From Candidatus Endomicrobium neocapritermitis (GTDB taxonomy: Bacteria; Elusimicrobiota; Endomicrobiia; Endomicrobiales; Endomicrobiaceae): a stretch of DNA of 64,000 nucleotides. Positions within the stretch are counted from its first letter, which is position 1; each line of letters starts with the position of its first letter. A model generated the notes under the pieces. It was not told where the DNA came from and searched no databases. It worked only from the letters and a program-made list of their open reading frames with translations. Shown piece by piece: positions 8,978 to 38,276 of this stretch. The stretch lies in the NCBI GenBank assembly GCA_009778325.1, contig WRJZ01000052.1:1-64000 (forward strand), in the 5' to 3' direction. Both the position numbers and the translations under genes were made by a program.

Positions 8978-9694
8978 ATGAAAAATCTTCTTTTAAAATT
9001 ATCAGCTTTTATTTATCCCGTCACCTGTTCATGCTGCGGGAAGGATATTTCCGCTGTATCAAAGCGGAGAGTATGCGCGTCATGCAAAAACGATTTAAAA
9101 CTTATTGAAGGACTTATCTGCCAAAAATGCGGGCTTCCTTTGTATGACGGAGGCGAGCATTGTTATACGTGCCGCAAACATCCGAAAGAGTTTTATTTTG
9201 ACAAAATGAGATCGGCTTATGCGTACAAAGGTTACATAAGAAAACTTATATTAAAATTTAAATATTCGGACAGAATGTTTCTGGCAGGCGAGCTTGCCGA
9301 AGGTATGATTTCGGTAATGCGCAATAATGTTTTCTTTAATGAAGCCGATATAATTGTTCCCGTGCCTTTGAGCATTGTCAGAAGTATAAAAAGGGGATAT
9401 AACCAGGCTGAACTGCTTGCTAACGAGATAAGCGAAAAAATTTCCAAGCCTGTGGTTAAAAATGCGCTTGTAAGAAAGAAGATAACAAAACCTCAGTTCA
9501 AACTTTCCAAACAGGAAAGATTTGATAATATCAAAGATTCTTTCGCGGTAAAAAATAAAGATTTGATAAAAAACAAAAACATTTTACTTGTTGACGATAT
9601 AGCGACTACTTCGGCAACGGCTTCGGCATGCACAAAAGCTTTGAAAGCCGCCGGAAGCGGCAAAGTATATGTAATAACATTAGCAAGAGATTAG
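8978..9694 (+). CDS. comF: ComF family phosphoribosyltransferase-like protein
   Basis: 238-aa ComF family protein. The N-terminus has a double zinc ribbon (CSCCGKD, CASCKND, CQKCGLP, CYTC). A type I phosphoribosyltransferase domain follows, with the conserved VPVPLS, RGYNQAELLA and PRPP loop LLVDDIATTSAT. ComF proteins are linked to DNA uptake in transformable bacteria, though many carriers are not known to be competent. No ribosome site is obvious because the leader is the right arm of a repeat. The TAG stop lies in the first bases of the inverted-repeat element at 9691. Confidence 0.92.
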   Translation: MKNLLLKLSAFIYPVTCSCCGKDISAVSKRRVCASCKNDLKLIEGLICQKCGLPLYDGGEHCYTCRKHPKEFYFDKMRSAYAYKGYIRKLILKFKYSDRMFLAGELAEGMISVMRNNVFFNEADIIVPVPLSIVRSIKRGYNQAELLANEISEKISKPVVKNALVRKKITKPQFKLSKQERFDNIKDSFAVKNKDLIKNKNILLVDDIATTSATASACTKALKAAGSGKVYVITLARD

Positions 9695-9965
9695 AGTGTG
9701 TTCACACATATTACGCACATGCGCTGCTAGGATTTTTGAGGAAATTTTCATTTTTTTGCGACAAAGATACACAGACGTATCTGCGAAGCAAAAAAAAGGA
9801 AAATTTACCAAAAAGCTGCCGCAGCCATTCGGGTTTGGCCAAAACAAGCCCAACTGCGTTGTTGCGGCTCCTATCAATAGTCTCGCTATTGCTTCGTCGC
9901 CGCGCCTAGCATTTGAGCTTGTTTTGACCAAACGCATGCGCGTAATATGTGTGAACACACTCTAA
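9691..9965. mobile_element. MITE-like 275-bp element with perfect 26-bp terminal inverted repeats
   Basis: The terminal repeats at 9691-9716 and 9940-9965 (ttagagtgtgttcacacata...) are perfect inverted copies. Nested hairpins lie inside: 9742-9759 with 9788-9806, enclosing GATAC/GTATC at 9766-9781; GCTGC/GCAGC at 9815-9825; GTTTGGCCAAAACAAGC at 9833-9849 with 9917-9933; GCGGC/GCCGC at 9864/9899; CAATAG/CTATTG at 9875/9886. No credible ORF is present. It supplies the stop codon of comF. It could be a non-autonomous transposon relic or a structured RNA. No target duplication can be read with confidence. Together with the following 122 bases it fills the 393-bp gap before the next gene. Confidence 0.85.
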
Positions 9966-10023
9966 GCCTCCCAACTTCCTGTCGACCCCTTGACCGAAAT
10001 GCGTAATATTGTAGACAATTTTA

Positions 10024-10063
10024 CAAATATTTCACTGTGGAGAGAAATATTTGTTGGTATAAT
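10024..10063 (+). promoter_or_regulatory. Extended -10 promoter with perfect palindromic operator
   Basis: CAAATATTTC (10024-10033) and GAAATATTTG (10044-10053) are perfect 10-bp inverted repeats with a 10-bp spacer. They end two bases before an extended -10 sequence TGGTATAAT (10055-10063). No good -35 hexamer exists at the right distance; the palindrome occupies that place. This suggests a regulated promoter for the small membrane protein and giant protein genes. The regulator is unknown. Confidence 0.65.
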
Positions 10064-10087: not shown

Positions 10088-10600
10088 ATGAATAAAACAA
10101 AAATCAGGATTATTTCCCATGTTATTTTATTAGGCATACTGTTAAATGCTTCTCTTTGCCATATAACTTTAAACTGTAAAACAAATTTCTTTATAGCGTT
10201 TTCTTCCGTGGCGGGAGCGCTGACATACTGTTATAACCCCATTCAATTTGCCGAAGGTTTAGAAGATAAAATATCGGATTGTTTTTATAAAAAGCCGGAT
10301 AAACAAGATAAAAAGAAAAATGGAAGCAATAATCCCGTTGGTAATAAAAAGAACGATTTTATGATTTCCGTTTTTTCTCATCCGCAAATCAAAAATTTTA
10401 AACAGCTTAATAAATTTTATATTGATAAATCAGCCGTAAATATAAACAGTTTCTTAATATACAGCTTATACGGCAAATTTTTAGAAGGGAATTCTTCCGT
10501 ATTTGCTTTTAGTTTTATGCTGCTGGCGTGGTTTGCTGTAATTTTCAGAAAGGAACGTAACTTTTTTAAAAATATAAGATTTGTAATAAAAAACATATAA
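10088..10600 (+). CDS. Small membrane protein upstream of the giant protein
   Basis: 170-aa protein not recognised as any family. It has an N-terminal hydrophobic segment (residues 8-26), a possible second near 33-50 (FIAFSSVAGALTY), a Lys/Asp/Asn-rich loop (residues 70-95) and a C-terminal hydrophobic segment (about 137-155, SVFAFSFMLLAWFAVIF) followed by a basic tail. It starts 25 bases downstream of an extended -10 element. It lies 42 bases before the giant gene on the same strand, so the two are probably one operon and it may be a membrane partner. That link is inference. Confidence 0.65.
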   Translation: MNKTKIRIISHVILLGILLNASLCHITLNCKTNFFIAFSSVAGALTYCYNPIQFAEGLEDKISDCFYKKPDKQDKKKNGSNNPVGNKKNDFMISVFSHPQIKNFKQLNKFYIDKSAVNINSFLIYSLYGKFLEGNSSVFAFSFMLLAWFAVIFRKERNFFKNIRFVIKNI

Positions 10601-10628: not shown

Positions 10629-10642
10629 TATTGGAGGAATTT

Positions 10643-13600
10643 GTGAAAAAACCATTAATTAAAAAAATCTTGGCGAGTTTTATAGCCGTAATTTTTACGG
10701 TTACGACTTTGTCACAGAGTGTATCTGCGACCGGCATAATTGGAGTACCCCCCCTACCTGCTAGTTTCGCGGCGGAAAATACGCTGCGGCTGCAGAGCGT
10801 TTTACCTTTAACGCTCGGCAAAATAACAAACCTTCATGTAAAACAGTCTCCGCAAGTAATAATAAATATTCAAGACCTGCACAGCCATGCCCAAACTCAA
10901 AGAAATATCAATCAGATAATAAACCTGATTGTTTCAAACTATAAAGTGTCGGCAATATACGCCGAAGGCGGCGTCGGCGATATCAGCGTTGATTGGATAA
11001 AACAAATACAAGATGAGGAACTCCGCTCCCGCGTTATAGAACAGCTTTTGGAAGACGGCATACTTACGGCTGCCGAATATTACGCCATGACTAGTAGAGG
11101 CAATTACGAATTACGAATGACGAATTACGAATCAACGGCAAAGATGAAAGGCAATTACGAATCAACTGCAACAGCTGCCTATATTCCGTTAAAAGGAATA
11201 GAAGACCGCGAGATTCATCAAATAAATTTAAAAAGGCTGGCGGCAATACAAGATAACAAAAAAAGGTACGAAAGCAGTATTGCGAAAATAGAAAAAGAAA
11301 TAAAAGTTCTCAATAAACTTTATACCAACAGGCGCAATGTTAAATTCAACAAAATATTGTCTGATTATGAAAACAAGGAAATTGCAGACGCGAAATTTTA
11401 CAGAGTGATCGCGAAATACGTAGAGGCAATAAACAAAAACCCGGAAAGGTATAACAATTTTACAAAAATATCGCTGGAAAATTACCCGAATGTCAACGCT
11501 TATACCGAAATACTTTACAACAGCCGTGAAATAGACAATAAAGCCGCGTCAATGGAATTGCAAAGAGTTGTAAACGATTTAAAGTCGTCGCTTTCATACG
11601 TAGATTATAAATATATTCTTGATGAAACAATCAATTTTCAGGATACCGACAAAACGATAGAAATTTTGTCCCTGGTTATCGGGCAAGACCCATCGGCGCT
11701 GCGTAAGCTTCCAAACCTTGAGAGGCTGATAAAGTTAAACAAGCTTGCCAAAGAGTTAAACCCGATAGATTTGATTACGGAGCAGAGAAACCTTACCGAA
11801 AGAATAAAATTCGCGCTTGCGTATGACGACACCGAAGCGGAAATAAGTTTTATAACTGACTTTTTCAAATATTTCAAAGATTATATGTCGGCAAATTTAA
11901 CGCAGGATGACTGGATATATGTAAAAGACAATCTGCCGCAGTTTATAGAAATATTTAACAAATACGCAGCCGGAAACTATTTGGCGGAAATATCAGATGA
12001 TTTTGCGGAAATAACCGCATACTACGACTTAAACACCAAAAGAAACGAAATATTTTTGCAACAGTTGGGAGTTTCTTCTTCGTCGTCATTATCTGTATCT
12101 GTCATCTCCGAAGACAGTAATAGGGGATCCGCGTTAAAAAACCAAAATGGATTCCCGATAGAGGCGCTTGGGAATGACACTACAATGACAGCTCTCGAAT
12201 TATTGAAACAAGCTCAAGATGTCAAAATACTGATTACCGGCGGCTACCACAGCGAGGGATTAAAAAATCTCTTATCCGATAAAAACATATCGTTAATCCA
12301 AATAACGCCGAACGTCACCGCAGACATAACGGAAGCACAAAAAGCATATGAAAACATAATAAAAGAGCAGTCAAAACTCCCCAAAAATGCGTTATCTTAT
12401 ATTTTATTGTCAAGCTCAATTCCGCCATATCAAAAAGCTGTAATAATAAAAACATTAGTTGCAATAAATTTAGACGAAGCGGCTATAGCTAAAGCCATAG
12501 AAGCTGACAAAGCTTCAATTAGCGAAGACAAAACTAAAATTGTTATTGACGGGCAAGAATTTGAAATTACAGCCGCGCAAATTAATGTTATTGACGCAGA
12601 CAAAAAAGGCAAACTACAAGAAATAGTTGATGCTTTTGCGGGAACATTTTCAAAACAGACTTTTTTTGATTTTGTAAGTTTATTTGGCAAAGACGAACCG
12701 GGTCCTATTACCGAAATAGAAAGAGAGGCTTTGCAAAATAAAGAAAAGTTAGCTGGCATTTCAAATTGGCAAAGATATCCTAGATTTTTACAAATGTTTT
12801 TATTGGAAATAGAAACAGGTCTAAAAGTAAAAGCTCGTGGAAAAATAAAATCTGTTTTCGATGTTTCATCGGAAGAAGTTAAAGCTTTAATAAGAGGACA
12901 TGAGAAAGACATAAAAACTTATATCAAGGCTCCGACATTCGGATTACAAATTCCAAAGTTTTCAGCAATGGAGGATGCGCAAAAGTGGATGTCGGATATT
13001 GACAAAAAGTTTAACGGCAGACTGATAAGCGCTATCGGTTCCGTTGACGGAATGAAATGGTTTTCCGTTTTACGTTCAAACAAGGAATTAGCTGACGAAT
13101 ATGCGTTGATATCCGAGGCAAATGCGGCATTGGAGCAAGCTATAAAAGATAATGATGAATCAGCTGCAAAAAGCGCGCGCGAAACATTAAAAGGTTTTGA
13201 AAATTTCAGATTCAAAGTTTTATCCGCGGAAATTATGGCAAAATCCGGAGGTTATATAGCTGTACAGACTGCGGACAAAGTTGATAAAGACGGCAAAAAA
13301 ATTGAGGTTTTAGACTGTTATATTATAGGCTTGGACGGGTTGGAGAAATATAAAGTTAACGATAAAGTTCCGCACATATCAAGAGACGAGGTAAATAAAA
13401 GAAATACCGATGCCCAAGGCAAATCTTTGGAGAGCAGGCTGGCAGGTTTGTTCGGCACGGGAACAACTTTGCCACAAATAGAAGGTTTAACCGGACTTCA
13501 CAAACAAGTTTCGGAAAAAATGATTAGAGCCGACATTTTGGGGCTAAACATACATACCATAAATAGCAATGGTCTTAGCCAAGAAGCTAAAAACAGCGCA

Positions 13601-16600
13601 TTTTTGGCTTTGACTTATGATAAAACCGGCGAACTGAAAAGCTATCACGTCGTGAATTCTCAAGGAACTTCCATAATGCCAATAATGTATGAATTTGCTG
13701 GGGAAGCGACCACAGATGTTTTAGCCGTTGCAAACAATCGTTGGGATGAAAACGGAGAGCAGGTTCCGGTAAGTTTTATGTCATCCGGTTTAACTTCAAA
13801 TATTTTGTGGAGATTAATAAAAGAATATAAGCCGCAAGCTTTTAACTATAAGAAAAAATCTTTATTCGGATATAAGATTTCAGCAGCGATAACAACTTTG
13901 CAAGAGGCGAAAGAGTTTGCCTCAACTCTTCCCGGAGGATTTTTAGAAAAGATAGGTTCAGTAGACAATGCGGTATATTTTGATATTTTGTCGGCTTATA
14001 TGGAATTAAACGAAGACGCAATAAACGCTATAAAATCATTCGCTTCGGAATATAAAGTAAAAATAAACGGTAAAGAAAAGGATGTGATAGAAGCAATAAA
14101 AGCCGCAAGATCCGATAAGGGTGCGATTGAGTCAAAAGTTAAAGAAAAAAAGCCGAAAGAGGCGAATTTCAAAAATAAAGAAGAATACGCTAAAGCCATG
14201 TCTAAATTTGATAAATGGAAATCGGGCGAGTATGATAAGTTTGCAAAAAAATATGGGGAACTGATTAATTTCGGCATACTGTATCAATTTAAACAAGATG
14301 CGGGTTCGGTGATAGCTCTGCAGACTTCTTCAGACGGAATCCTTGATGTTTACATAATAGGCAAAGGAACCTACAACAAAAAATACGACAAAAACATCGA
14401 TTGGAATGTAATAAATAAAAAAACTAAAATAGCGGGCAAAACGTTACAGGACAGACTGCTTGGAATGGGAATAGATATAGCGTCTTTGGGAACAGATGTG
14501 ATAGAAGGAATTGATAAACAGCAGCCCGAAACTATGATTCGCGCTCAAGACATAGGCCTTAATATTACAGTGGAAAGTTCGGCAGGCGCGCAGGAAACTC
14601 TTTCAGGCGCGTTTATTGCAATAAGCGAAGACGGTTCATGGCACATAGTTAATGCTGAAGCCTCGGAACTTGTTCCCATTCAATATGAACTTGCCGAACA
14701 GATAAAACCGACCGCAAGAGAAGCGTTGTTAGGATATGACGCTAAAACAATTTATAAAATTATCGGAGAACTTAACGGCTCTTTGTTAAGCGATTATAAT
14801 ATTGCCGGCAAGATTGCAGATGTTGCCAAAGGAATTGTTACCGTAAGAGTGGGAGCAGACGGCACTATTTCAATGATATATCAATATAATGGGGCTTTAG
14901 AGAAGTTGCTGATCCCGCTCATTGGGAACGAAGTATATTATGAGAAAAATGGAACAAGCGCAATGATTTCATTCGATAATGTTAATGTGCCAAAATATTT
15001 TAAAAATCTGTTGGATTTTGTTATGAAATCAGGCTTGTATAGTTTATGGAAAAAATCTAAAGGCGAATTGAAACTTTCCGATAAAGATGAAAAATATTTT
15101 AGAGATATTGAAAGAAAAGCAGAAGAAACTTACAGAGCAAAACAGGCAAAGATTGAAGAATTAGAAGGCTATGTGCTAAGGTTAAAACAGTATAGCAATA
15201 GCAGCTTTAACGACAATCAACGGAAACAATATGATGAAGCCGCTATAGCTTGGAGTAATGCAAAAAAAGTACTCTCAGAATATTATAAAGATAAGTCCAA
15301 CCCTGCGTTTCAAGAACTTATAGAGGTAGCTAACTTTTCAGAAAATGATATTTCAAGCGTCAAAAAATTAGAAAAACATATTAAGCGGCTGAAGGCTGTA
15401 CAGCAAGGCGCGGCGCTGGTTTCGGATTCTACGATAGAGTATTACACAAAAACTTTGGAAGGACTGCTGGAACTGTGGCAAGTCAAACAAGATAAAGCCA
15501 ACAAGGAGATAATCGGGGAGATAATAAAAAAGACAATGGAAGAAGTTGGATTCCAAGATCTTTCGGAAGAGAAAAAAGAAGAAGCAATAAATTATAGGAT
15601 CATCTCGCAGCTTCTTGCTCCTGAAAAGGAAGCGGGTATAATAGCTCAAATAGTTGAAGCGGTGCTTGTCGGTAAGATAACATTAGAACAAATTTTGTCG
15701 GGCACATTTCCGGCAGATTCGATTGTCGGTAAATTTTTATCCGGAGACCATTCAAAGTATCCTGATGCAAAAGAATTATATCATCAAGGATTATACGACA
15801 TAGTTAGTAAGACAATCGATGCTTTAAGTTATAGCATGCCGTTTACATTGCCATGGTTTGTGATACCTTTTTGTCAACCTGTGGCTGTACAAATTGCCGC
15901 GTTGTGGTTTAAGATTCCTTTTTTTCGACAAAAAGCTTTAGAAACAGCTGCGCGTGAAAGCATTGCTCCGCATATGCAGTGGAATGAAGAGCATCCCGAT
16001 CCGCTTACAACCGACGGAGGCAAAAATAGCGGTAATATAAAGGGGTTTGAGTGGTATATACTTAGTCATAAATTAGATGATTTATTATATGGCGGGGATA
16101 TTTTTCAAGAAGACATAAATATTTTTAAAGGGATCGTATGGCTGGTTTCCGGTAAAGATTATGATGCAGCAGAAAGCGTATACACATCTGATTTATCAAA
16201 GCAGGTAAAGAGTTTTATTAATGAAGATGTAACGTGGGATAAATTTGCTGAAAGATTAAAAACAAAAGCTAACAATCGGAAAGAGGCAGATTATTCTCAG
16301 GCCATTAAATGGCTGCTTTCAGCCGTGTCGCAGGCTTCAGAGACACCTAATAAAAAATATGAAGAAGATTATGAGAGCAGTCAGGTCAAAATCCCCGAAC
16401 ACCTGAAACCTTTTATGGAAAAATTGGAATTACTTCTTAAGCCTAAATCGGAACGCGAATATGATTATTATAAAGATTCGTTAAGATTGATTGCAGCAAT
16501 TTTGTTTAAAAATGCCGATTATGTTATAGGTAAAGGAGGAAAAAGATATCCTTTGCTTCTGAATAGAAACGAATTTATGAAAGCGCTGTCAGGGTTAAAT

Positions 16601-19600
16601 ATAACGCAAGAGAGTATAAATAAGTATGCCGCGGAATCGGCCAAGATGGAATATGAATATAGTAACGGACGCGTAGAAATAAGCAATGATGAGTGGCGAG
16701 TAAAAGGTTATACAAAATCAGGAGATTTGTTAAAGGGAATGTGGGATATGTCAACTCCGGATGCTGAAGGCAAAAGCATAGAAACAAAGGTTAAAACTAT
16801 TGCTGATTTAAGAAATGCCGTCACTAACGATGAAAAAACTTCAATTGCTTTTGTTTGTTCATATAATGAACTTCGAAGCGCTTCGGCAGAAGTTTTACTT
16901 AAATATTTATTGTACAAAAACGGCAAAGAAAAAGTAGAAGTTTTTTCAGCCGGCTTAAACAAAATGTTTGGCAGAGAATTATCAGGCCAAGTAAGGAAAA
17001 AATTAGACAATAAATACGAAAGAGATAATGAAGAAGATAAAAAAATGTTAAATGCAATATCAGACGATTTTGTGTCCGAGTTTATAGTTGCGATTTTATT
17101 AAATAAAATTCCTGATTTTATAATAACATTTGAAGAGTTCCAAAAGAAGGAATTATTAGAAATAGGAAAAATTTTGGGTGTCGAGTTGAATGTATTTTTG
17201 TTTAGCGAACTTGACCCTGGATCATTTCCGAGAGAGAATAAGGATATAGATGGCAGTAACTGGCATTTTGTAATTAATAATATGGAGAAAATTTTTGAAA
17301 GTAATTTTAAAAAAGTGAAGGCGCAGGGAACTGCGCTGACTTCGGATGGTAAAAAAGGCAAGAAGTTATATAGTTTTGCGCCGTTTGCTTTAATACCTTT
17401 TTTAGAAGCGCATTGGCTGCCGGTTTTGTTGGCTGCAGGCGGTGTTGCGGCAGCCGGCTGGCTGGTTTGGAAAGTTTGGACAAACTATAAAGCAAGTCAA
17501 ATCCAAAAAAACGAAAAAGCTGAGAAAGATTACATTCCTGACGGCGTAATTAAAGGGGAAGCCGAACTCGACAGATTGCTTAAAGATATATATGGCGATT
17601 CCCCTTCTGAAAGCGTAATTAAAATTGACGAGGCACAGCAAGCATATATAAATGCCACAATTGAAGACTGTGATGAGGAAGGATATAAATATGTCATATT
17701 TAATTATTCAAAGATAGCGGATAGACAAGAAGAACTAATGTCTTATATAAGACAATTTGAAAACATTCTTTATCTTCACAATGTGGATGGCAGAGACCCT
17801 GACAGCGAAACTATACTTATGGTTCCGACAGAAGAAGCAGAGGCTGTAAAAAATAAAATAAATGAACTTTCGCAACCTAAAACGGATGTAAACAAGAATG
17901 CCAGAATTGAAGACTGTGATGAGGAAGGATATAAATATGTCATATTTAATTATTCAGAGATAGCGGATAGGCAAGAAGAACTAATGTCTTATATAAGACA
18001 ATTTGAAAACATTCTTTATCTTCACAATGTGGATGGTAGAGACCCTGACAGCGAAACTATACTTATGGTTCCTACAGAAGAAGCAGAGGCTGTAAAAAAT
18101 AAAATAAATGAACTTAGCGCAATAATGGACAAAAACCGTGAAGAAGTTAATAGAAGAATAAGAGCAGGAGAGGCTGTGTGGAAGATTGCGGCTTGGATAG
18201 CGTTCAGCCGGAAAGAAGGCAAGTTAGAGGGTTCGAGAGGCGAACAGATGGATTCGTTTAAACCGCGTAGTTTCTTTGAAGCTCATAGAGACAAAAGAGG
18301 CGTACTTGCGCTATACGGCGGGACTTTGTTGATAGCGGCAATTACGGGATTTATGTTTGTTGGCGCGGGTATAGCCGCCGCAATAACGATAGGAATAGCA
18401 GGCGGCTTGCTGTCTCACAAACCATTGCATTTTATAATAGACTATGTGTATATTAAAAATTCGGATCTCTATAAAGCGCGGCAGGTTCTGCAAAAGCAGG
18501 AAGATCAAATTACGGTTTTAGTTGTAAATGACGCTATTGCAGGTAAAGCTACCGGTATAAAAGTAGAAGGCACAAATATACGTTATGAAAATGTCAACGG
18601 GCAAATAGTAATATATGCAAACGGAATTGAATATGATACTGCAGTTAAAGAAATACACGGTTCAAAAGCCTTAAAAAAAATAATTAAAGAACATACGGGA
18701 GCCGATCTTACAAATGTGTCTTTAGAGGGGATTGCAGCAGACAAGGATATTCAAGCCGGCGATATTGTAGTTGACGGCGATATTATAAAGGTCAATGCCC
18801 AAGAGTATGAGTCAGCATACTCTCAAGGTTTTGAAGCGCTAAGTTATTATTTGCATCATGCCAGAGAAATAGCGAGAAACTTAAAAGAAACAAAAACAGA
18901 TAAAGCTATAGCGGATTTTACTAATAAAAGCGTAAATGACGTTGTAAAAGCTTTACAAAACGTAAAAACTTATTCTTCTATGAAATTAGCTGTTTCGGCT
19001 AAAGATGCCAAGGATATTGCGCAAAAGGTTAATTTATCCGCATTAAGATTATTGGGCGTAGAAGTGTTTGTAGCGGGAAATGAAACGGCTGAAAACTATC
19101 AAAGCTTGGGTTTCTGCGGAGAAATAAACGGCAGTTTATTGATGGATTATTATACTGGACAGACAATAAAAGTTAACACTGCAGATGATGCCGGCGGTTT
19201 GGATGCAATAGGTTTTCAAAATCTGCTAAATCAAGCGGAAGGTTTTGTTTTAATAGATATAGATGTTATAAATAACAATTTTAAAAGCCGAAGAAATATT
19301 TTGCAATTAAACGATAACTTCGCGGCATTGACAGGCAGCTTAAAAGTAAAGTTCGGACTTACTGAAATAAATTTGAATGAAGCGATAAGCATGGCATATA
19401 GGCTGGATTTAAACAATATGCCTATTTTGGAAACAGAAGAAAATCTTAATGTAGAACATGCGCAGGGCTTGCTAGATTCATTGCCTTCAAATCACTCTGT
19501 AAAAACGTTGTTAAATACGGTAAAGAAATTTGATACTGATGGACAAGTAAACAACATAATAATAGAAAGAATTTTAATTGCAAATTTTCTTGCAAAAAAA

Positions 19601-19903
19601 GGATTAAAAACTTCCGGCAAAAAAACGGTGATAGATGACAAACAAATGGAAGTTTTACTAGGGAAAGCGCTATTTCAGTTGGACGGAACAGATATTAGCC
19701 CCAATATAGAATTTGGCGATATACAGCATTACAATGACTATATAATACAAGAGTCAAAAAAGAATACTAAACAGGCAGCGGCAAATGTTGTAGAAATGAT
19801 ATTTCTGTATCATGGCATAGCTATAGACATAAATAAGTATAAAGAACAGCTTTATAATTCCAACAGACAAACCGGATATAAAGCAATTTTAGCCGCAGCA
19901 TAA
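10643..19903 (+). CDS. Giant exported multidomain protein with ChaN/TIKI-like N-terminus and LMW-PTP-like domain
   Basis: 3,086-aa protein. I chose the GTG at 10643 because ggagg lies 5 bases upstream; an in-frame TTG at 10631 is less likely. Signal peptide at residues 1-30. Residues ~70-560 have motifs INIQDLHSHAQTQRNI, IYAEGG and LITGGYHSEGL, resembling the ChaN/TIKI-like haem-binding or protease fold seen in giant proteins of Elusimicrobiota and Omnitrophota (my recollection). Residues ~773-1034 and ~1082-1376 are a diverged duplication. Hydrophobic segments lie near 1735-1757, 2246-2280 and 2553-2590. Residues ~2066-2225 match low-molecular-weight tyrosine phosphatase: FVCSYNELRS gives C2072 and R2078 of CX5R. 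An 82-aa tandem repeat follows (2337-2492). Two repeat-element peptides are inserted in frame (residues ~153-181 and ~486-513). It is probably surface or periplasmic; the function is unknown. Confidence 0.8.
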   Translation: MKKPLIKKILASFIAVIFTVTTLSQSVSATGIIGVPPLPASFAAENTLRLQSVLPLTLGKITNLHVKQSPQVIINIQDLHSHAQTQRNINQIINLIVSNYKVSAIYAEGGVGDISVDWIKQIQDEELRSRVIEQLLEDGILTAAEYYAMTSRGNYELRMTNYESTAKMKGNYESTATAAYIPLKGIEDREIHQINLKRLAAIQDNKKRYESSIAKIEKEIKVLNKLYTNRRNVKFNKILSDYENKEIADAKFYRVIAKYVEAINKNPERYNNFTKISLENYPNVNAYTEILYNSREIDNKAASMELQRVVNDLKSSLSYVDYKYILDETINFQDTDKTIEILSLVIGQDPSALRKLPNLERLIKLNKLAKELNPIDLITEQRNLTERIKFALAYDDTEAEISFITDFFKYFKDYMSANLTQDDWIYVKDNLPQFIEIFNKYAAGNYLAEISDDFAEITAYYDLNTKRNEIFLQQLGVSSSSSLSVSVISEDSNRGSALKNQNGFPIEALGNDTTMTALELLKQAQDVKILITGGYHSEGLKNLLSDKNISLIQITPNVTADITEAQKAYENIIKEQSKLPKNALSYILLSSSIPPYQKAVIIKTLVAINLDEAAIAKAIEADKASISEDKTKIVIDGQEFEITAAQINVIDADKKGKLQEIVDAFAGTFSKQTFFDFVSLFGKDEPGPITEIEREALQNKEKLAGISNWQRYPRFLQMFLLEIETGLKVKARGKIKSVFDVSSEEVKALIRGHEKDIKTYIKAPTFGLQIPKFSAMEDAQKWMSDIDKKFNGRLISAIGSVDGMKWFSVLRSNKELADEYALISEANAALEQAIKDNDESAAKSARETLKGFENFRFKVLSAEIMAKSGGYIAVQTADKVDKDGKKIEVLDCYIIGLDGLEKYKVNDKVPHISRDEVNKRNTDAQGKSLESRLAGLFGTGTTLPQIEGLTGLHKQVSEKMIRADILGLNIHTINSNGLSQEAKNSAFLALTYDKTGELKSYHVVNSQGTSIMPIMYEFAGEATTDVLAVANNRWDENGEQVPVSFMSSGLTSNILWRLIKEYKPQAFNYKKKSLFGYKISAAITTLQEAKEFASTLPGGFLEKIGSVDNAVYFDILSAYMELNEDAINAIKSFASEYKVKINGKEKDVIEAIKAARSDKGAIESKVKEKKPKEANFKNKEEYAKAMSKFDKWKSGEYDKFAKKYGELINFGILYQFKQDAGSVIALQTSSDGILDVYIIGKGTYNKKYDKNIDWNVINKKTKIAGKTLQDRLLGMGIDIASLGTDVIEGIDKQQPETMIRAQDIGLNITVESSAGAQETLSGAFIAISEDGSWHIVNAEASELVPIQYELAEQIKPTAREALLGYDAKTIYKIIGELNGSLLSDYNIAGKIADVAKGIVTVRVGADGTISMIYQYNGALEKLLIPLIGNEVYYEKNGTSAMISFDNVNVPKYFKNLLDFVMKSGLYSLWKKSKGELKLSDKDEKYFRDIERKAEETYRAKQAKIEELEGYVLRLKQYSNSSFNDNQRKQYDEAAIAWSNAKKVLSEYYKDKSNPAFQELIEVANFSENDISSVKKLEKHIKRLKAVQQGAALVSDSTIEYYTKTLEGLLELWQVKQDKANKEIIGEIIKKTMEEVGFQDLSEEKKEEAINYRIISQLLAPEKEAGIIAQIVEAVLVGKITLEQILSGTFPADSIVGKFLSGDHSKYPDAKELYHQGLYDIVSKTIDALSYSMPFTLPWFVIPFCQPVAVQIAALWFKIPFFRQKALETAARESIAPHMQWNEEHPDPLTTDGGKNSGNIKGFEWYILSHKLDDLLYGGDIFQEDINIFKGIVWLVSGKDYDAAESVYTSDLSKQVKSFINEDVTWDKFAERLKTKANNRKEADYSQAIKWLLSAVSQASETPNKKYEEDYESSQVKIPEHLKPFMEKLELLLKPKSEREYDYYKDSLRLIAAILFKNADYVIGKGGKRYPLLLNRNEFMKALSGLNITQESINKYAAESAKMEYEYSNGRVEISNDEWRVKGYTKSGDLLKGMWDMSTPDAEGKSIETKVKTIADLRNAVTNDEKTSIAFVCSYNELRSASAEVLLKYLLYKNGKEKVEVFSAGLNKMFGRELSGQVRKKLDNKYERDNEEDKKMLNAISDDFVSEFIVAILLNKIPDFIITFEEFQKKELLEIGKILGVELNVFLFSELDPGSFPRENKDIDGSNWHFVINNMEKIFESNFKKVKAQGTALTSDGKKGKKLYSFAPFALIPFLEAHWLPVLLAAGGVAAAGWLVWKVWTNYKASQIQKNEKAEKDYIPDGVIKGEAELDRLLKDIYGDSPSESVIKIDEAQQAYINATIEDCDEEGYKYVIFNYSKIADRQEELMSYIRQFENILYLHNVDGRDPDSETILMVPTEEAEAVKNKINELSQPKTDVNKNARIEDCDEEGYKYVIFNYSEIADRQEELMSYIRQFENILYLHNVDGRDPDSETILMVPTEEAEAVKNKINELSAIMDKNREEVNRRIRAGEAVWKIAAWIAFSRKEGKLEGSRGEQMDSFKPRSFFEAHRDKRGVLALYGGTLLIAAITGFMFVGAGIAAAITIGIAGGLLSHKPLHFIIDYVYIKNSDLYKARQVLQKQEDQITVLVVNDAIAGKATGIKVEGTNIRYENVNGQIVIYANGIEYDTAVKEIHGSKALKKIIKEHTGADLTNVSLEGIAADKDIQAGDIVVDGDIIKVNAQEYESAYSQGFEALSYYLHHAREIARNLKETKTDKAIADFTNKSVNDVVKALQNVKTYSSMKLAVSAKDAKDIAQKVNLSALRLLGVEVFVAGNETAENYQSLGFCGEINGSLLMDYYTGQTIKVNTADDAGGLDAIGFQNLLNQAEGFVLIDIDVINNNFKSRRNILQLNDNFAALTGSLKVKFGLTEINLNEAISMAYRLDLNNMPILETEENLNVEHAQGLLDSLPSNHSVKTLLNTVKKFDTDGQVNNIIIERILIANFLAKKGLKTSGKKTVIDDKQMEVLLGKALFQLDGTDISPNIEFGDIQHYNDYIIQESKKNTKQAAANVVEMIFLYHGIAIDINKYKEQLYNSNRQTGYKAILAAA
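11098..11182 (+). repeat. attacga heptad repeat inserted in frame in the giant gene
   Basis: Sequence ggcaattacgaattacgaat and its continuation through caacggcaaagatgaaaggc and a second partial word run matches the intergenic elements at 26283 and 38203. It is read as GNYELRMTNYESTAK plus a second NYESTATA unit. No inverted right arm is present. Reading continues in frame into AAYIPLKGIED on the far side. Confidence 0.9.
12100..12182 (+). repeat. Family-2 palindromic element inserted in frame in the giant gene
   Basis: It begins tgtcatctccgaa, contains taggggatcc and atggattcccgata, and ends gggaatgacac. These are the same ends and inner arms as the intergenic copy at 141-252, with a shorter middle. 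It is translated as a low-complexity peptide starting VISEDSNRG and ending ALGNDT, just upstream of the ITGGYHSEGL motif. Confidence 0.88.
17651..18116 (+). repeat. 246-bp-period tandem duplication inside the giant gene
   Basis: Copies at 17651-17870 and 17897-18116 are nearly identical at the DNA level, including third codon positions; the few differences include K/E in NYSKIAD versus NYSEIAD. The encoded ~74-aa unit begins ATIEDCDEEGYKYVIF and ends EAVKNKINEL. The near-identity points to a recent duplication. The unit predicts alpha/beta secondary structure and I recognise no family. Confidence 0.93.
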
Positions 19904-20130: not shown

Positions 20131-20397
20131 ATGCCTATAATAAAAAAAAGCGCTGATTTGCGTAATAATTATTCCGAAGTCTCCGATATTTGTCACAAAT
20201 ATAACGAGCCTGTTTTTGTTACAAGAAACGGCGAGGGCGATCTTGCTGTAATGAGTATAGAAGCATATGAAGAACTGGCAAGCAGAAAAGAGTTATATGA
20301 AGCTATAGACTTGGGGCTTTCAGATATTAAAAATAAGAAGAACATTTCTGAAGATAAGTTTAAACGCAAGCTTAACGCTTTGCGTATGAGGAAATAA
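20131..20397 (+). CDS. Phd/YefM family antitoxin
   Basis: 88-aa antitoxin. Residues 1-50 fit the Phd/YefM DNA-binding fold (IIKKSADLRNNYSEVSDI, PVFVTRNGEGDLAVMSIEAYEEL). The charged C-terminus (SEDKFKRKLNALRMRK) would be the disordered toxin-binding part. Ribosome site aaaaggagg precedes the ATG. Its stop TAA overlaps the toxin ATG by one base, giving coupled translation. A palindrome over the promoter supports autoregulation. Confidence 0.93.
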   Translation: MPIIKKSADLRNNYSEVSDICHKYNEPVFVTRNGEGDLAVMSIEAYEELASRKELYEAIDLGLSDIKNKKNISEDKFKRKLNALRMRK

Positions 20398-20711
20398 TGT
20401 ATAAAATCATCGTATCAGAGAAAACGGTTGGAGATATAGAAGCGGCAATTGATTATATTTCCAACAATTTAAAAAACTCACAAGCAGCGGATAAGCTTAT
20501 TGATGAAATAGAAAAGACATTAGAACTGTTAAAAATAAATCCTTTAATATGTCCGATATTAAACGATATATATTTGTCGGCATTCGAAATCAGAGCGGCA
20601 ATAATCAAAAATTATATGGCGTTTTATATAGTTAATAAAAAAGGAAAAAAGATTTATATAGTTAGATTTTTATACGCTAAAAGGAATTGGCAGCAAATTC
20701 TGTCTAATTGA
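20397..20711 (+). CDS. RelE/ParE family toxin
   Basis: 104-aa protein of the RelE/ParE superfamily: VSEKTVGDIEAAIDYISNNL at the N-terminus, the conserved IRAAIIKNYMAFYIV strand region and IYIVRFLYAKRNWQQIL at the end. The C-terminal RFLYAKRNWQ motif is closer to ParE-type toxins, which poison gyrase, than to mRNA-cleaving RelE, but the target is not certain. It overlaps the antitoxin by one base. Confidence 0.92.
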   Translation: MYKIIVSEKTVGDIEAAIDYISNNLKNSQAADKLIDEIEKTLELLKINPLICPILNDIYLSAFEIRAAIIKNYMAFYIVNKKGKKIYIVRFLYAKRNWQQILSN

Positions 20712-23097: not shown

Positions 23098-26000
23098 ATG
23101 AAAAAGACGATTTTTTTTATTTTGATGTTTTTCGTATTTTCGCGCGGGGTTGTTTTTGCAAATGAGCTTGCCGCGTCGATAATTGCCGGAGAGACGGATA
23201 AGGCCGTGAGCTTAATAGAACGCGGCGAAGGCATTGATATAAATGCAAAAGACGAGCAGGGGTATACGCCTCTTATCATTGCCGCACAACATGGAGACGC
23301 TGCGGCGGTCAGGGCTCTTATAAATAAAAATGCAGATATTAACGCGAAAAGTTATAAAGGCATTACGGCATTAATGGCGGCGGTTGAAAAAGGAAGTATC
23401 GATATCGCGATTATGCTTGCAGACGCACGCGCTGAAATAGACGCTAAAGACAATGAAGGATGGACGGCTTTGCTTTTTGCCGCGCGTTCCGGCAATGCAG
23501 GTATGGCAAGGTTTTTGATAGACAGAAGGGCTGATGTAAACGCCAGAAACTATGCCGGCGAGACTCCTCTCACGCAGGCTGTTGAGAAAAGCCACAGAGA
23601 CATAGTAAAAATGCTGATTGAAAACGGCGCTAATGTAAATGCAAGGCAGAATAACGGATGGACGCCGTTAATGTTTGCGGCAAAAAACGGAAGCGATTTT
23701 ATCATGACGCTTTTAGTTGACGAGAAAGCCGACGTAAACGCAAAAAATAATTCATACTGGACTCCTTTAATGATCGCAATTAAAAGCGGACATCAGGCCT
23801 CGGCAAAACTTCTTATAGAATCAGGAGCGAATGTTAACGTTGAAAATGAAAATAAGTGGACGGCCCTGATGTTTGCCGCTGAAGCAGGCAGCGAGGAAAC
23901 CGTTAATCTTCTCATAGACAGAAATGCAGGAATTGACGCGAAAAACGATTCAAATTCAACCGCGCTTATCATTGCTTTGGACAATAAGCGTGCCGAAACG
24001 GCAAACCTCCTCATTAACGCCGGAGCAAACGTAGACATAAAAAATAATAACGGAATGACCGCTCTAATGCTTGCTCTGAGGAACGAATACGTTAAAGAAG
24101 CCCGTAAAATTATAAACAAAACCGCGAATGTCAATGCCACGGACGCTAAAGGCTGGAACGCTTTGATGTTTGCGGCAAGGTACGGCAATTCATCGGAAGT
24201 ATTTTCGGATCTTATAAATAAAAGAGCGCATGTTAACGCCAAGAATGATTCCGGCTGGACTGCCCTTATGCTCGCGGCTTACGCCGGCAACGGGGAGTTT
24301 ATTAAAATACTCATGGAAAATGGCGCTGATACCGAGATTAAAAATAATAACGGCAGGACTGCTCTTATGGAAGCGATTGAAAATAAGCATCCGGAAACGG
24401 CTGCTGTTCTTATCGCGGAAGGCGCGGACGTAAATGCGAAAGCCGGCGAAATATATATGACCGCGCTTATGTTTGCTTCAGCCGCAGGATACGACAGCCT
24501 TGTTTCTCTTTTGCTTTCAAAAGGCGCAAATGTTGACGATAAAAATAATGAAAATATGACGGCTTTGTTTTTCGCGGTAATAAATAACAGAATCGGCACC
24601 GTGAAAAAACTGATTGAATCCGGAGCTGATATAAACTTAAGCGACAATAAAGGAAAAAATGTTTTGGCTTATGCCGTAGAAAACGGACATAAAGAACTTG
24701 AAAAACTGCTCAGAGCCGAGATTGCCGATAATGCAAAAGGCGTTTTAGCCGAAATAAATAAAGGCGAAGGAATGGACACCCATGTCACTCCGGTTTTGCT
24801 TGCCGCTTATGACGGCGATATTGAAAAAGTAAAAGAAAAATTATCAGCAAGTAAAAAAGCCGCCGGAGAGAAAACACCGCTGGGAGTTACTCCGCTTATG
24901 ATAGCCGCGTCAAAAGATAATATTGAGATGGCAAAACTTTTGATTGAAAAAGGAGTGAAAGTCAACGTTTCCGCTAAAGACGGTTCTACGGCTTTGATTT
25001 TTGCGGCGCGCGGCGCATCGCCTGAAATGATAAATCTGCTTCTTGATAACGGCGCAAAAGTAAATTTGGCTGATAAAAAAGGGCTGACGCCTTTATCGGC
25101 GGCAATAAAAGCCGGAAGAATAGATGGAGTTCACGTTTTGATTGCGAGAGGAGCCGATGTAAATAAAAAAGATATTGAGGGGATGACTCCTCTGATGCAT
25201 GCCGCGAGAAACGGAAATGAGCGCATAATAAAAGAATTGATAAAAAGCGGAGCAAAAGTAAACGATAAGAATAAATCCGGACAGAGCGCGCTTATGATTG
25301 CCGCCGACGCAGAAAATAAAGAAGCGGTAAATATTTTAATTGAAAACGGCGCGGATATAAATATGAAAGACAATAACGGTTTTTCGGCTTTGGCTATGTC
25401 GGTATATAACGGCAAACCGGAAATGGTCGCTCTTCTTATAGAAAAAGGCGCGAATGTAAATATTAAAAACAACAAAGGCTGGACTCCGCTCATTATTGCG
25501 GCTTATCATGACAAAGCCGGCATTGTAAAAAAGCTGTACGAAGCCGGAGCGGATATAAACGCTGCAACGAAAGACGGCTGGACAGCTCTTATGGTTGCTG
25601 CAAAATACGGCAAAGACAAAATGGAAACTCTTAATCTGATTATAGAGCTTAAGCCGAATATCAATTTTAGAAATAAAAGCGGATGGAGCGCATTGATGCT
25701 TGCGGCTTATGAAGGAAATATTAAATCCGCGCAAGCGCTGATTTCCGCAGGCGCTGATGTCAACGCTTCAAAAAAAGACGGTTTTACGTCGCTCATGCTG
25801 GCCAGTGAGGCAAAAAACGCGGAAATGGCCAAACTTTTATTGTCTGCCGGCGCGAATATAAATATTGACAGTTCGTACTGGGGAACGGCTCTTAATGTCG
25901 CAGTTGCGAACGACGATGAAGAAATGGTCAGATTTTTGGTAAGGAGCGGGGCTGACAGAAACAAAACCGGAAAAAGCGGAAAGACGGCTTTGATGATAGC

Positions 26001-26283
26001 CGCGATGAGGGGCAATATCAAGATTGCGGAGTATTTGATTAATAACGGCGCTGACGTGAACGCGCAAGAAAAAAGAAGCGGATATACCGCTCTTGATTAT
26101 GCCTTCGGAAATGATGAAATGATAAATTTTCTTAAACAGCACGGTGCAGATAAAGCCAATGCTTTGAAGTACGACAAGATAATGGAAGAAAAACGCGAAT
26201 CTTTCTCCGTTCAGAAAGTTAATACGGCCGAAGGAAGCTCAACTTCTCCGTTTGATAATTCTGAGAAATGGATGCTGCAGTAA
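23098..26283 (+). CDS. Exported protein with 29 ankyrin repeats
   Basis: 1,061-aa protein. A signal peptide (residues 1-22, ending VVFA) is followed by ankyrin repeats of about 33 aa, each with the GxTALMxAAxxG and GADVNAKN pattern. I count 29 by hand: 15 in a first array (residues ~55-545), a short irregular linker (AEINKGEGMDTHV), then 14 more to about residue 1020, and a polar tail ending SEKWMLQ. It would form a long solenoid outside the cytoplasm, for binding partner proteins. Ribosome site caaggag precedes the ATG. An exported solenoid of this size hints at interaction with other cells, which is inference. Confidence 0.95.
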   Translation: MKKTIFFILMFFVFSRGVVFANELAASIIAGETDKAVSLIERGEGIDINAKDEQGYTPLIIAAQHGDAAAVRALINKNADINAKSYKGITALMAAVEKGSIDIAIMLADARAEIDAKDNEGWTALLFAARSGNAGMARFLIDRRADVNARNYAGETPLTQAVEKSHRDIVKMLIENGANVNARQNNGWTPLMFAAKNGSDFIMTLLVDEKADVNAKNNSYWTPLMIAIKSGHQASAKLLIESGANVNVENENKWTALMFAAEAGSEETVNLLIDRNAGIDAKNDSNSTALIIALDNKRAETANLLINAGANVDIKNNNGMTALMLALRNEYVKEARKIINKTANVNATDAKGWNALMFAARYGNSSEVFSDLINKRAHVNAKNDSGWTALMLAAYAGNGEFIKILMENGADTEIKNNNGRTALMEAIENKHPETAAVLIAEGADVNAKAGEIYMTALMFASAAGYDSLVSLLLSKGANVDDKNNENMTALFFAVINNRIGTVKKLIESGADINLSDNKGKNVLAYAVENGHKELEKLLRAEIADNAKGVLAEINKGEGMDTHVTPVLLAAYDGDIEKVKEKLSASKKAAGEKTPLGVTPLMIAASKDNIEMAKLLIEKGVKVNVSAKDGSTALIFAARGASPEMINLLLDNGAKVNLADKKGLTPLSAAIKAGRIDGVHVLIARGADVNKKDIEGMTPLMHAARNGNERIIKELIKSGAKVNDKNKSGQSALMIAADAENKEAVNILIENGADINMKDNNGFSALAMSVYNGKPEMVALLIEKGANVNIKNNKGWTPLIIAAYHDKAGIVKKLYEAGADINAATKDGWTALMVAAKYGKDKMETLNLIIELKPNINFRNKSGWSALMLAAYEGNIKSAQALISAGADVNASKKDGFTSLMLASEAKNAEMAKLLLSAGANINIDSSYWGTALNVAVANDDEEMVRFLVRSGADRNKTGKSGKTALMIAAMRGNIKIAEYLINNGADVNAQEKRSGYTALDYAFGNDEMINFLKQHGADKANALKYDKIMEEKRESFSVQKVNTAEGSSTSPFDNSEKWMLQ

Positions 26284-26348
26284 AGGCAATTACGAATTAC
26301 GAATGACGAATTACGAATCAATGGCAAGGGCAAAACGGCAATTGTGAA
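26283..26348. repeat. Half element, word attacga
   Basis: ggcaattacgaattacgaatg and its continuation through caatggcaagggcaaaacggcaatt is nearly identical to the coding copy at 11098 and the intergenic copy at 38203. No inverted right arm is present. It lies directly after the ankyrin gene stop, so here it did not extend the protein. Confidence 0.85.
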
Positions 26349-27673: not shown

Positions 27674-30193
27674 ATGAAAAATCAGAAAATTAACGAAATA
27701 CTAAGCCTTGTGCAAAGGCCGTCAAGATATATCAACAGCGAGCTCAACTCTCATCAGGCTGATATGTCTGCGGATTTTTCCGTATGCCTGTGCTTTCCGG
27801 ACATTTATGAAGTAGGAGCTTCAAATCTCGGGCTTGAGATTCTTTACCATTTAATAAATGAAAAAAAGCTGGCCAGGTGCGAGAGATGTTTTGCCCCTGA
27901 TACGGATTTGGAGCAAATACTGCGTGAAAGAAAAATAAGCCTTTTTTCGCTTGAATCCCAAAGCGGTTTAAATAGTTTTGATATCGTGGGATTTACCATT
28001 CAATGCGAACTTGTCGCGACAAATATTATTAATATGCTGGATTTAAGCGGTATGTCCGCTTTTGCAAAAGACAGAAAAGAAGAAGACCCTCTTATACTCG
28101 GCGGAGGCCCGGCTTTGACAAATCCCGAGCCTTTTGCCGATTTTTTTGACGCTTTTGTTATCGGCGACGGCGAAGTGGCGATGCCTCTTGTAATAAATTC
28201 ATGGAAAGAAACAAAAAACATGCCTAAAGCCGAAAGGCTTAAAAAACTTTCCGAAATAGAAGGCGTTTATATTCCTTCGCTTTATAATGTCGAGTACAAT
28301 GAAGACAATACGGTAAAATCAGTTTTGCCGGTAAGCGGCGAAGTTAAAGCTGTTGTGAATAAAACCGTTTTAAACCTTGAAAACGCATATTTTCCCAAGA
28401 AAAAAATAGTTCCTTTTGCCGAAACAGTGCACAACAGGCTCAATATTGAAGTTGCGCGCGGATGTCCCGGACAGTGCAGATTTTGCCAGGCTTCAAAATA
28501 CTATCGCCCGTGGAGGCAGCGCCCCCTTGAAAATCTTTTGGAGCTTGTAAAAGAAGGGTTAGCGTCTACCGGTTATGAGGAAGTGGCTTTTTCGTCGCTT
28601 TCATGCAGCGATTATAAAAATCTTGATAAGCTGCTGATGGAAACAAATAATTTGTACGGCAGTTCAAATTTGAGCATATCTTTGCCGTCTTTGCGCTGTA
28701 ATGAACATTCGCTGAAAGTCGCGCAGTATATAAACCGCAGCAAAAGGCCTACTTTGACTTTCGCGCCTGAAGCCGGCACTGACAGGCTAAGGAATGTTAT
28801 CGGAAAATATTTGTCCGAAAAACAGATTGTCAAAACGCTGCTTTCGGCAAACGCCATGGGCTGGAAAGTCATAAAACTTTATTTTATGATAGGGTTGCCC
28901 ACTGAAACTGATGAGGATTTAGCAGGTATAAATACTTTAGTGCGTTTTGTTAAAAAAGAGGCCAAAAAGGGCAATTACGAATTACGAATTACGAATTACG
29001 AATCAACGGCGAAAGGCAAAGGGCTCGATTTTAATATTACTGTTTCTCCGTTTGTGCCGAAAGCGCAGACTGCTTTCCAGTGGGCGCCTATGACGGCTCC
29101 CGAGAAAATAAAAGAGAAAATTGATTATTTAAATAAGATTCTTCCAGCAAAAATAAAAGCGCATAACTACAGAGCAAGCGTGCTGGAAGCTTTTATCGCA
29201 AAGGGAGACCGGCGCGTTTCCCGGGCGATTTACAAAGCGTGGCAAAAGGGCGCGCGGTTTGACCAGTGGGCCGATAAATTCGGCAATGATATTTGGAGCG
29301 AAGCGATTGCCGAAAGCGGGCTGAGTATTGATTTTTATGTTTACAGGGCAATAAAAGAGGGCGAAGTCCTCCCGTGGGATCATATTAATTTCGGAGTTAC
29401 AAAAGAATTTTTATATAAAGATTATATAAAAGGCATAAATGAAACTGCCGAAGCCGAAAGTGAAAAATTCGATAAAACGCAGTGCCTGCTGCCGGAAAAT
29501 TATGAAGAACCTAAAAATTCGGTTTTGCCGCCCGTAATGCGTATACGCCTTCGTTTTTCAAAAACGGGCATGGTTAAATATGTTTCGCATCTTGAACAGA
29601 TTGAAGTTTTAAGAAGGGCGGCAAGGCGTTCCGGGCTGCCTGTGGCATATACCGCGGGTTTTAGCCCGCAGGTAAAATCATCTTACGGACCTCCTCTTTC
29701 GGTAGGACATGAAAGTTTATGCGAATACATGGAGCTTTATTTTACGGAAAAAGTGAATGCCGGTGAAGTAATTGAAAAATTTAGCGCAAATCTTCCATAC
29801 GGATTCTCTATTTTGGACGCGAAAAGGGTGCCTCTTAACTTCCCTTCAATAGATGTTTTGGCAAATGTTGCTGAATTTTTAATAGAAAATGCGGATATAG
29901 CGCAGGAAAAGATAGATAATTTTATAAACCAAAGTTCAATACCGGTTGAAAAGTCCAAAAAAGGCAAAATTATCGAAATTGACGCTAAGCCTTTAATAAA
30001 AAAGATTCAAAATATTGAAGGTTCGCTGATAATGCAGTTAAGATTTGGCAGCGGAAAAACGGTAAAACCTGAAATGATTTTAAAAAAACTATTGGAAAAT
30101 AATGAAATTTATGCCAAAATATACAATATATACAGTATAAAAAAAATAAAATTATATATAGAGGTATCCAACGGGGAGATTTATGAGCCGTAG
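27674..30193 (+). CDS. TIGR03960-type radical SAM protein fused to DUF2344
   Basis: 839-aa protein. The N-terminal ~200 residues form a B12-binding-like Rossmann region (LCFPDIYEVGASNLGLEIL). The radical SAM core has the cluster motif CPGQCRFCQ (CX3CX2C). The C-terminal domain from about residue 615 is the TIGR03936/DUF2344 type (MRIRLRFSKTGMVKYVSHLEQ). This fusion is often found next to rng and ribosomal genes such as rplU, as here with RNase G two genes on. An in-frame repeat-element peptide (residues ~432-450, NYELRITNYESTAK) interrupts the core between EAKK and LDFNITVSPF. The gene overlaps the next by 11 bases. Confidence 0.92.
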   Translation: MKNQKINEILSLVQRPSRYINSELNSHQADMSADFSVCLCFPDIYEVGASNLGLEILYHLINEKKLARCERCFAPDTDLEQILRERKISLFSLESQSGLNSFDIVGFTIQCELVATNIINMLDLSGMSAFAKDRKEEDPLILGGGPALTNPEPFADFFDAFVIGDGEVAMPLVINSWKETKNMPKAERLKKLSEIEGVYIPSLYNVEYNEDNTVKSVLPVSGEVKAVVNKTVLNLENAYFPKKKIVPFAETVHNRLNIEVARGCPGQCRFCQASKYYRPWRQRPLENLLELVKEGLASTGYEEVAFSSLSCSDYKNLDKLLMETNNLYGSSNLSISLPSLRCNEHSLKVAQYINRSKRPTLTFAPEAGTDRLRNVIGKYLSEKQIVKTLLSANAMGWKVIKLYFMIGLPTETDEDLAGINTLVRFVKKEAKKGNYELRITNYESTAKGKGLDFNITVSPFVPKAQTAFQWAPMTAPEKIKEKIDYLNKILPAKIKAHNYRASVLEAFIAKGDRRVSRAIYKAWQKGARFDQWADKFGNDIWSEAIAESGLSIDFYVYRAIKEGEVLPWDHINFGVTKEFLYKDYIKGINETAEAESEKFDKTQCLLPENYEEPKNSVLPPVMRIRLRFSKTGMVKYVSHLEQIEVLRRAARRSGLPVAYTAGFSPQVKSSYGPPLSVGHESLCEYMELYFTEKVNAGEVIEKFSANLPYGFSILDAKRVPLNFPSIDVLANVAEFLIENADIAQEKIDNFINQSSIPVEKSKKGKIIEIDAKPLIKKIQNIEGSLIMQLRFGSGKTVKPEMILKKLLENNEIYAKIYNIYSIKKIKLYIEVSNGEIYEP
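28969..29022 (+). repeat. attacga heptad repeat inserted in frame in the radical SAM gene
   Basis: gggcaattacgaattacgaa and its continuation to caacggcgaaaggcaaag is nearly the same as the copies at 11098, 26283 and 38203. It is read as GNYELRITNYESTAKGKG, in the same frame as in the giant gene. The flanking protein sequence fits the family on both sides. Confidence 0.92.
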
Positions 30194-38202: not shown

Positions 38203-38276
38203 CGGCAATTACGAATTACGAATGACGAATTACGAATCAACGGCAAACTGCAACGGCAATTACGAATCAGCAACAA
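38203..38276. repeat. Half element, word attacga
   Basis: acggcaattacgaattacgaa continues through gaatcaacggcaaactgcaacggcaattacgaatcagc. It is very similar to the coding insertion in the giant gene, including the second short word run. It lies between convergent genes. No inverted right arm is visible. Confidence 0.85.

Follow-up and report, generated by a model that had tools for sequence, protein, structure and literature searches.

What does a tyrosine-phosphatase-like domain do within a predicted-exported protein of 3,086 residues, and does it define the system to which that protein belongs? We addressed this question for one reading frame in the window, that is, the whole 64,000-nucleotide stretch of the Candidatus Endomicrobium neocapritermitis genome (Elusimicrobiota, Endomicrobiaceae) analysed here. 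Comparison with relatives indicates that the protein is a member of a large, apparently unnamed giant-protein family in termite-gut and rumen Endomicrobia, in which the phosphatase is one among many interchangeable cargo enzymes and not the defining feature.

Layout of the giant and its LMW-PTP-like domain

The frame runs from 10643 to 19903 on the forward strand, as do all features of the giant given below, and indeed comprises the 3,086 codons from a GTG start at 10643 that the initial annotation had assigned to it. An in-frame TTG at 10631 is an alternative start adding four residues, and the opposite strand is closed across 10643–19903, with no open frame. The N-terminus, KKILASFIAVIFTVTTLSQSVSA (10643–10732), resembles a signal peptide by hydropathy and by eye, in agreement with the annotation, and a comparable basic and hydrophobic beginning recurs in those own-genome giants whose start is visible. 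Two diverged copies of about 300 residues and a recent tandem duplication had likewise been proposed, and both were recovered. Copy A (residues ~760–1019, 12920–13699) and copy B (residues ~1069–1351, 13847–14695) are 29% identical, with a pairwise E of 4e-21 and a z-score of 25.8 against shuffles. The in-frame tandem duplication at 17651–18115 has a period of 246 bp (82 residues) and comprises 1.9 copies with 97% matches. As to the internal membrane-like segments, hydropathy left two convincing ones, at residues 2258–2276 (17414–17470; a possible stop-transfer segment) and 2563–2581 (18329–18385). The stretch around residue 1736 was borderline, and that at 2143 sits within the LMW-PTP-like domain. 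The protein is predicted to span the membrane.

Not recorded in the initial annotation, a copy of an interspersed AATTACG repeat has been inserted in frame at residues ~154–181 (11102–11185); the paralogues lack it, and it lies in a low-confidence loop in the model of the N-terminal module. Copies of the repeat are interspersed in the window at 1563–1668, 11102–11130, 26288–26316, 28973–29001, and 38207–38235. Those at 1563–1591 and 1640–1668 form an inverted pair resembling a small palindromic mobile element, and the repeat also lies in frame within a radical-SAM-like gene (27674–30193).

Both neighbours described for the giant, a small membrane protein and a palindrome, exist. The former is a hydrophobic protein of 170 residues in the list of open reading frames (10088–10600, forward strand), and the latter, upstream of it at 10023–10054, has 14-bp arms (93% complementary) and a 4-bp loop. 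The term "dedicated" has to be reduced, however: the small protein is local to two loci of its own genome, its sole other copy there (36% identical) lying beside a sister giant at 77.6 kb. Further upstream, at 9691–9965, an element-like 33-nt inverted repeat (97% complementary) encloses another inverted repeat. Downstream of the giant, two small genes at 20131–20711 resemble those for a Phd/YefM antitoxin and a RelE/ParE toxin, and a 1,061-residue protein with a signal-peptide-like start and, by eye, ankyrin-like repeats is encoded at 23098–26283.

The LMW-PTP-like domain was delimited by profile comparison to residues ~2050–2230 (16790–17332). Its homologues lie inside giant reading frames of many relatives, and stand-alone LMW-PTPs match it too. 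In the translation and alignment, the P-loop C2072-SYNEL-R2078-S2079 (FVC-SYNEL-RS, 16856–16879) has the Cys and Arg at exactly the positions claimed for the CX5R motif; C2072, N2075, R2078, and S2079 conform to C-X5-R-[ST] with the conserved Asn. Among 11 giant-embedded copies, the P-loop Cys, Asn, Arg, and Ser and an SAG motif were invariant, which contradicts a loss of Cys and Arg in all homologues, the outcome that the initial annotation had named as telling against a phosphatase. The fold proposed for residues 2060–2230 was supported by a profile of these 11 copies, which matched 48 PDB sequences, solved LMW-PTPs among them, with a best E of 4.9e-17; almost all of the 48 are named LMW-PTP or arsenate reductase. 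The Pfam LMW-PTP score of the window domain alone was borderline (20.6 and 24 bits in two runs; cut-off 23.2), and LMWPc exceeds the cut-off in other giants. At the general-acid position, the majority of embedded homologues carry DP, whereas the window copy carries PR (Pro-Arg). An LDP near the aligned PR, in the same stretch of the domain, might replace the missing Asp.

With LMW-PTPs (PF01451) the window copy thus shares the C-x2-N-x2-R-S P-loop, the SAG motif, and the profile match to PDB structures; it differs in being embedded in a predicted-exported giant and in lacking the aligned general-acid Asp. Judged from these alignments, we regard the domain as a true homologue of LMW-PTP. Its catalytic activity is doubtful because the general-acid Asp is absent at the aligned position. 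Since PR replaces DP and the substitution by LDP is only possible, we call the domain LMW-PTP-like rather than a proven enzyme. A copy of it was found neither in the sister giant nor in the two nearest orthologues, G001:C12 and G023:C5.

Constant ends of the giant family

The N-terminal module (N-module; residues 52–600, 10796–12442) was delimited with profiles and a structure model and is common to the whole family. In a profile search, the own genome yielded 18 N-module matches, mostly in reading frames of 1.6–9 kaa. By our own arithmetic, the open frames of the mapped members, some of which end at contig ends, sum to ~61 kaa, or ~7–8% of the genome. Across the phylum, 25 of 80 sampled genomes contained matches, and many relatives have 10–20 each. 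The order is broadly positive, and three further families carry more divergent N-modules, with 19–23 matches each. A small-genome genus (g8) has 0–4 matches, and the profile search found no giants in some close relatives, namely G009 (2.2 Mb) and G014 (a single contig of 1.6 Mb). In named genomes we found 214 N-module relatives; the best 80 of these 214 all belong to Endomicrobia/Elusimicrobia, sampled in termite guts, in the rumen, and elsewhere. Because many giant frames run into contig ends in the draft genomes, the giants are probably more numerous and longer than these drafts show. Endomicrobia comprise free-living and flagellate-endosymbiotic lineages (PMC11257099); a text search of that article found no mention of giant proteins. 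The literature available to our search contained no earlier description of this giant family. We consider it very probable that the family-level claims drawn from these sequences hold.

The initial annotation had assigned a ChaN/TIKI-like region to residues 70–560. A relationship of the N-module to the ChaN/TIKI superfamily is supported for residues ~52–600 by a link to PF04187 (ChaN), a profile bridge, and a set of acidic and His residues. A distant giant of 4,034 residues passes the PF04187 cut-off and matches the N-module profile with E-values of 2.7e-41 for the whole sequence and 7.8e-29 for the best segment. A tandem-array family from another Elusimicrobiota family bridges the N-module to ChaN in hhalign, with E-values of 3.8e-4 and 7.8e-9 that refer to single comparisons; only this bridge works, as the direct hhalign comparison of N-module and ChaN was not significant. 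Arrays of adjoining ChaN-like reading frames of 350–500 residues were observed in another family of the phylum (G096:C19:3453-16213, G087:C6:115594-124789, and G078:C2:281346-291423). For the TIKI superfamily, whose members include ChaN/PF04187, erythromycin esterase, Tiki, and RRSP of MARTX toxins, a 2His/2Glu active-site set has been defined (PMC6254334). Residues D78, H80, E108, and H536 of the N-module correspond to this set, with Asp in place of the first Glu. The first half, D78-L-H80 (10874–10882), is present in 41 of 42 alignment rows, the other row being a gap; the second acid, E108 (10964–10966), is found in 41 of 42 rows, and the second His, H536 (12248–12250), lies in a GG[FY]H motif invariant in all 42. 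The N-module thereby shares the order Acid-x-His … Glu … GG[FY]H and the profile bridge with the superfamily. It differs in the Asp, in a large helical insertion between the core halves, in its N-terminal position in a giant, and in the lack of a significant Foldseek match.

In Pfam searches, PF04187 had no match in the window protein itself, and no Pfam family was matched consistently by the N-module. TraB/GumN (PF01963) was considered as its identity and rejected, with nothing above the cut-off across the phylum sample. The AF2 model of the N-module is a confidently predicted alpha/beta structure (pLDDT 85.8, pTM 0.83); Foldseek against the PDB gave no match at E ≤ 0.001, with EreC appearing at E = 1.2. 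This silence is probably due to the large helical insertion.

The opposite end of the giants is constant as well. The window protein terminates in YKAILAAA-COOH (19877–19900), a family-wide tag that the initial annotation had not recorded; wherever the stop of an own-genome giant is visible, the last residues follow [ILMF][LM]x[AS]A. The pattern [ILMFV][LMI]x[AST]A-COOH occurred in 46 of 48 Endomicrobiaceae giants (26/28, 16/16, and 4/4 in the three sets) and in none of the background reading frames (0/310 and 0/497); it was written after the own-genome ends were known, so that the relatives test it independently. In the order's other families, the tag was exact in 6 of 13 giants and close in several others, and it was absent from nine giants of three distant families. 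tmRNA tagging was rejected as the origin of the tag: the one well-formed tmRNA tag ends in LALAA, which is similar but not identical, with Leu at −3 and not at −4 as in the giants. The remaining tmRNA tags reported by ARAGORN appear misparsed. S41 peptidases do not mark giant-bearing genomes, being equally frequent in genomes without giants and present nearly everywhere, and hence their distribution does not pinpoint a tag reader.

The tag closes a C-terminal module (C-module; residues 2564–3086, 18332–19900) of ~550 residues in the family. With a profile built from BLAST seeds, it was detected in seven giants of the own genome and in the genomes of 17 relatives. Nothing convincing was found for it in Pfam or among PDB sequences, and Foldseek of its AF2 model (pLDDT 78.7, pTM 0.79) against the PDB gave no significant match.

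Swapped middles and their cargo enzymes

Between the constant ends, the chains are exchanged. The orthologues L300 (5,242 residues) and L301 (4,513 residues) are 61% and 63% identical at their ends, and BLAST found no similarity between their middles of ~3–4 kaa. L300 carries PEP-utiliser and PPDK domains and L301 carries NDK and GNAT. The sister giant contains GNAT and a sub-threshold HD domain, and the recognised cargo of the window giant is the LMW-PTP-like domain. Across the family, in the retrieved stretches for which domains were mapped, we found PGK, PGI, PGM, the adenylate kinase ADK, the nucleoside-diphosphate kinase NDK, PPDK_N, ADA, and LMWPc, and additionally NUDIX and trypsin-like domains. 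By these assignments, the cargo is mostly concerned with sugar-phosphate, nucleotide, and phosphate chemistry; most of each giant chain has no recognisable domain. One frame of 5,862 residues combines PGK, ADK, a methyltransferase, and PGI, and a relative's frame of 4,446 residues (G024:C97) contains ADK-PGM-PGM-PGK-PGI in this order, with intact motifs. In L089 and L246, the PEP-utiliser domain precedes PPDK_N, the reverse of the order in PEP synthase. A giant of 6,027 residues (L076, G000:C37:1-19500) has several AAA_5 (dynein-related) domains and a VWA-like domain, with the family tag at its end.

The own genome encodes an embedded PGK and a separate housekeeping PGK. Embedded PGKs retain 104–128 of the 138 residues invariant in housekeeping PGKs. 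In a quick tree with a provisional branch order, they fall into separate deep branches, which suggests that the captures were old and probably several. The dN/dS ratios were 0.09 for embedded PGK, 0.07–0.20 for embedded LMW-PTP, 0.15–0.19 for the N-module, and 0.22 for the C-module, with some of the underlying dS values near saturation. In the pairs tested, cargo enzymes and end modules are under purifying selection.

The side of the membrane on which the cargo resides can be predicted clearly in simple cases only. In the window giant (P0001), L073, L081, and L301, a recognised enzyme follows the signal peptide and comes ahead of any convincing internal hydrophobic segment. Multiple internal hydrophobic segments occur next to the cargo in L078, L238, L239, and L246, and in L078 and L238 such segments leave its side ambiguous.

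Possible functions and comparison with known systems

We see an about even chance that the window giant belongs to an Endomicrobiia family of Sec-exported carriers with constant ends and interchangeable cargo. The chain would be exported through Sec. In the envelope, the candidate reader of its C-terminal tag would be a factor for sorting or attachment, or else a C-terminal processing protease of the PDZ type, for instance S41/CtpA. Anchoring or processing of the chain would fall to the N-module, acting as a hydrolase or as a binding domain. Once folded, the cargo may work on the trans side, where its substrates would be phosphorylated metabolites from cells that have lysed or been contacted; alternatively, it may work within a recipient cell. 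Export, tag function, and enzyme activity of the giants are what we infer from sequence. More tentatively, the carriers, routed by the five-residue tag, might bring active chains of glycolytic and phosphotransfer enzymes, ADK-PGM-PGM-PGK-PGI among them, out of Endomicrobia as an undescribed class of secretion, serving as a swappable external metabolism toolkit or an effector set. Against the carrier reading stand the missing general acid of the window phosphatase and the ambiguous cargo side in L078 and L238, as well as the blank Foldseek searches for both end modules and the silence of PF04187 on the window protein. ATP and sugar phosphates, on which glycolytic kinases depend, are scarce in the extracellular space. 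Further counterpoints are that S41 peptidases do not track the giants, that the C-module was found in only seven own-genome giants, that the tag is weaker beyond Endomicrobiaceae, and that some close relatives are free of giants.

The proposal that the Omnitrophota giant reading frames are adhesins or coats, made in PMC10066038, suggests that the present giants could be adhesins or a surface coat too, that is, long scaffolds that reuse old enzyme folds as binding or spacer bricks, catalysis being irrelevant. The bulk of each chain without a recognisable domain and the general acid missing from the window phosphatase would fit such scaffolds. We nevertheless consider them unlikely, given that embedded PGK, PGI, PGM, and ADK keep their catalytic motifs, that purifying selection was strong in the pairs tested, and that the cargo is biased toward phosphate chemistry rather than binding folds. 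Enzymes of this kind normally require cytosolic substrates, and several glycolytic enzymes can share one chain (G024:C97); together with the multiple hydrophobic segments beside the cargo of L078, L238, L239, and L246, this would suit membrane-tethered cytosolic metabolons, in which the internal hydrophobic segments would lead the chain back into the cytosol, where the enzymes would work, leaving just the end modules outside. Such an arrangement appears improbable: the cargo of the window giant, L073, L081, and L301 precedes any convincing stop-transfer segment, and a housekeeping PGK is present regardless.

The initial annotation had envisaged an undescribed envelope or host-interaction system, in which a dedicated small membrane protein and a palindromic operator adjoin the giant with its phosphatase-like domain. 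The homology to LMW-PTP, the intact P-loop, and the relative of the small protein that adjoins the sister giant speak for it. A dedicated phosphatase system is very improbable, though, because cargo is swapped between orthologues: the sister giant and the nearest orthologues carry other enzymes in place of a detectable phosphatase. In addition, the aligned general acid is lost, and the small protein occurs at just two loci, both in its own genome. What may survive of that proposal is the broader exported-carrier family with constant ends, in which the phosphatase is not central. That the giants are artefacts, produced by mis-assembly or by neighbouring genes whose fusions are decaying, is scarcely credible. 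Many of them do stop at contig ends, but unbroken frames recur in tens of independent assemblies, a conserved tag sits at the stop codon, and dN/dS is well under 1.

If export by such carriers holds true, the giants would represent a novel modular system of secreted enzymes. Two questions become testable, namely what reads the tag and which role intact glycolytic enzymes play outside the cytosol of a gut symbiont. With polymorphic toxins and MARTX-type multi-effectors, the giants share a constant trafficking part and exchangeable enzymatic cargo. Unlike these, both ends are constant, and the cargo lies in the middle and consists of housekeeping-type metabolic enzymes; the variable toxin at the C-terminus of polymorphic toxins and MARTX has its counterpart in a conserved C-terminus and a varying middle. 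Large polyvalent proteins of mobile elements resemble the giants in having many enzyme domains per very long chain. A Pfam search found no LPD domain in the window protein and LPD3 in a single paralogue, and the giants differ from these proteins by their signal peptide and by forming a multi-copy family within one genome.

Giant genes of these phyla have been catalogued before, for Omnitrophota in PMC10066038 and for Elusimicrobia in the preprint by West-Roberts et al. (cited in PMC12057145); according to these descriptions, they contain few annotated domains and show little conservation. The present giants share with them the very long exported reading frames, the scarcity of annotated domains, the related phyla, and a suspected role in cell–cell interaction. 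As far as those descriptions go, the family is set apart by its homologous, constant ends, its C-terminal tag, and its swapped enzymes. New for giant genes are the definition of a family, a constant front end, a searchable C-terminal tag, and recognisable cargo.
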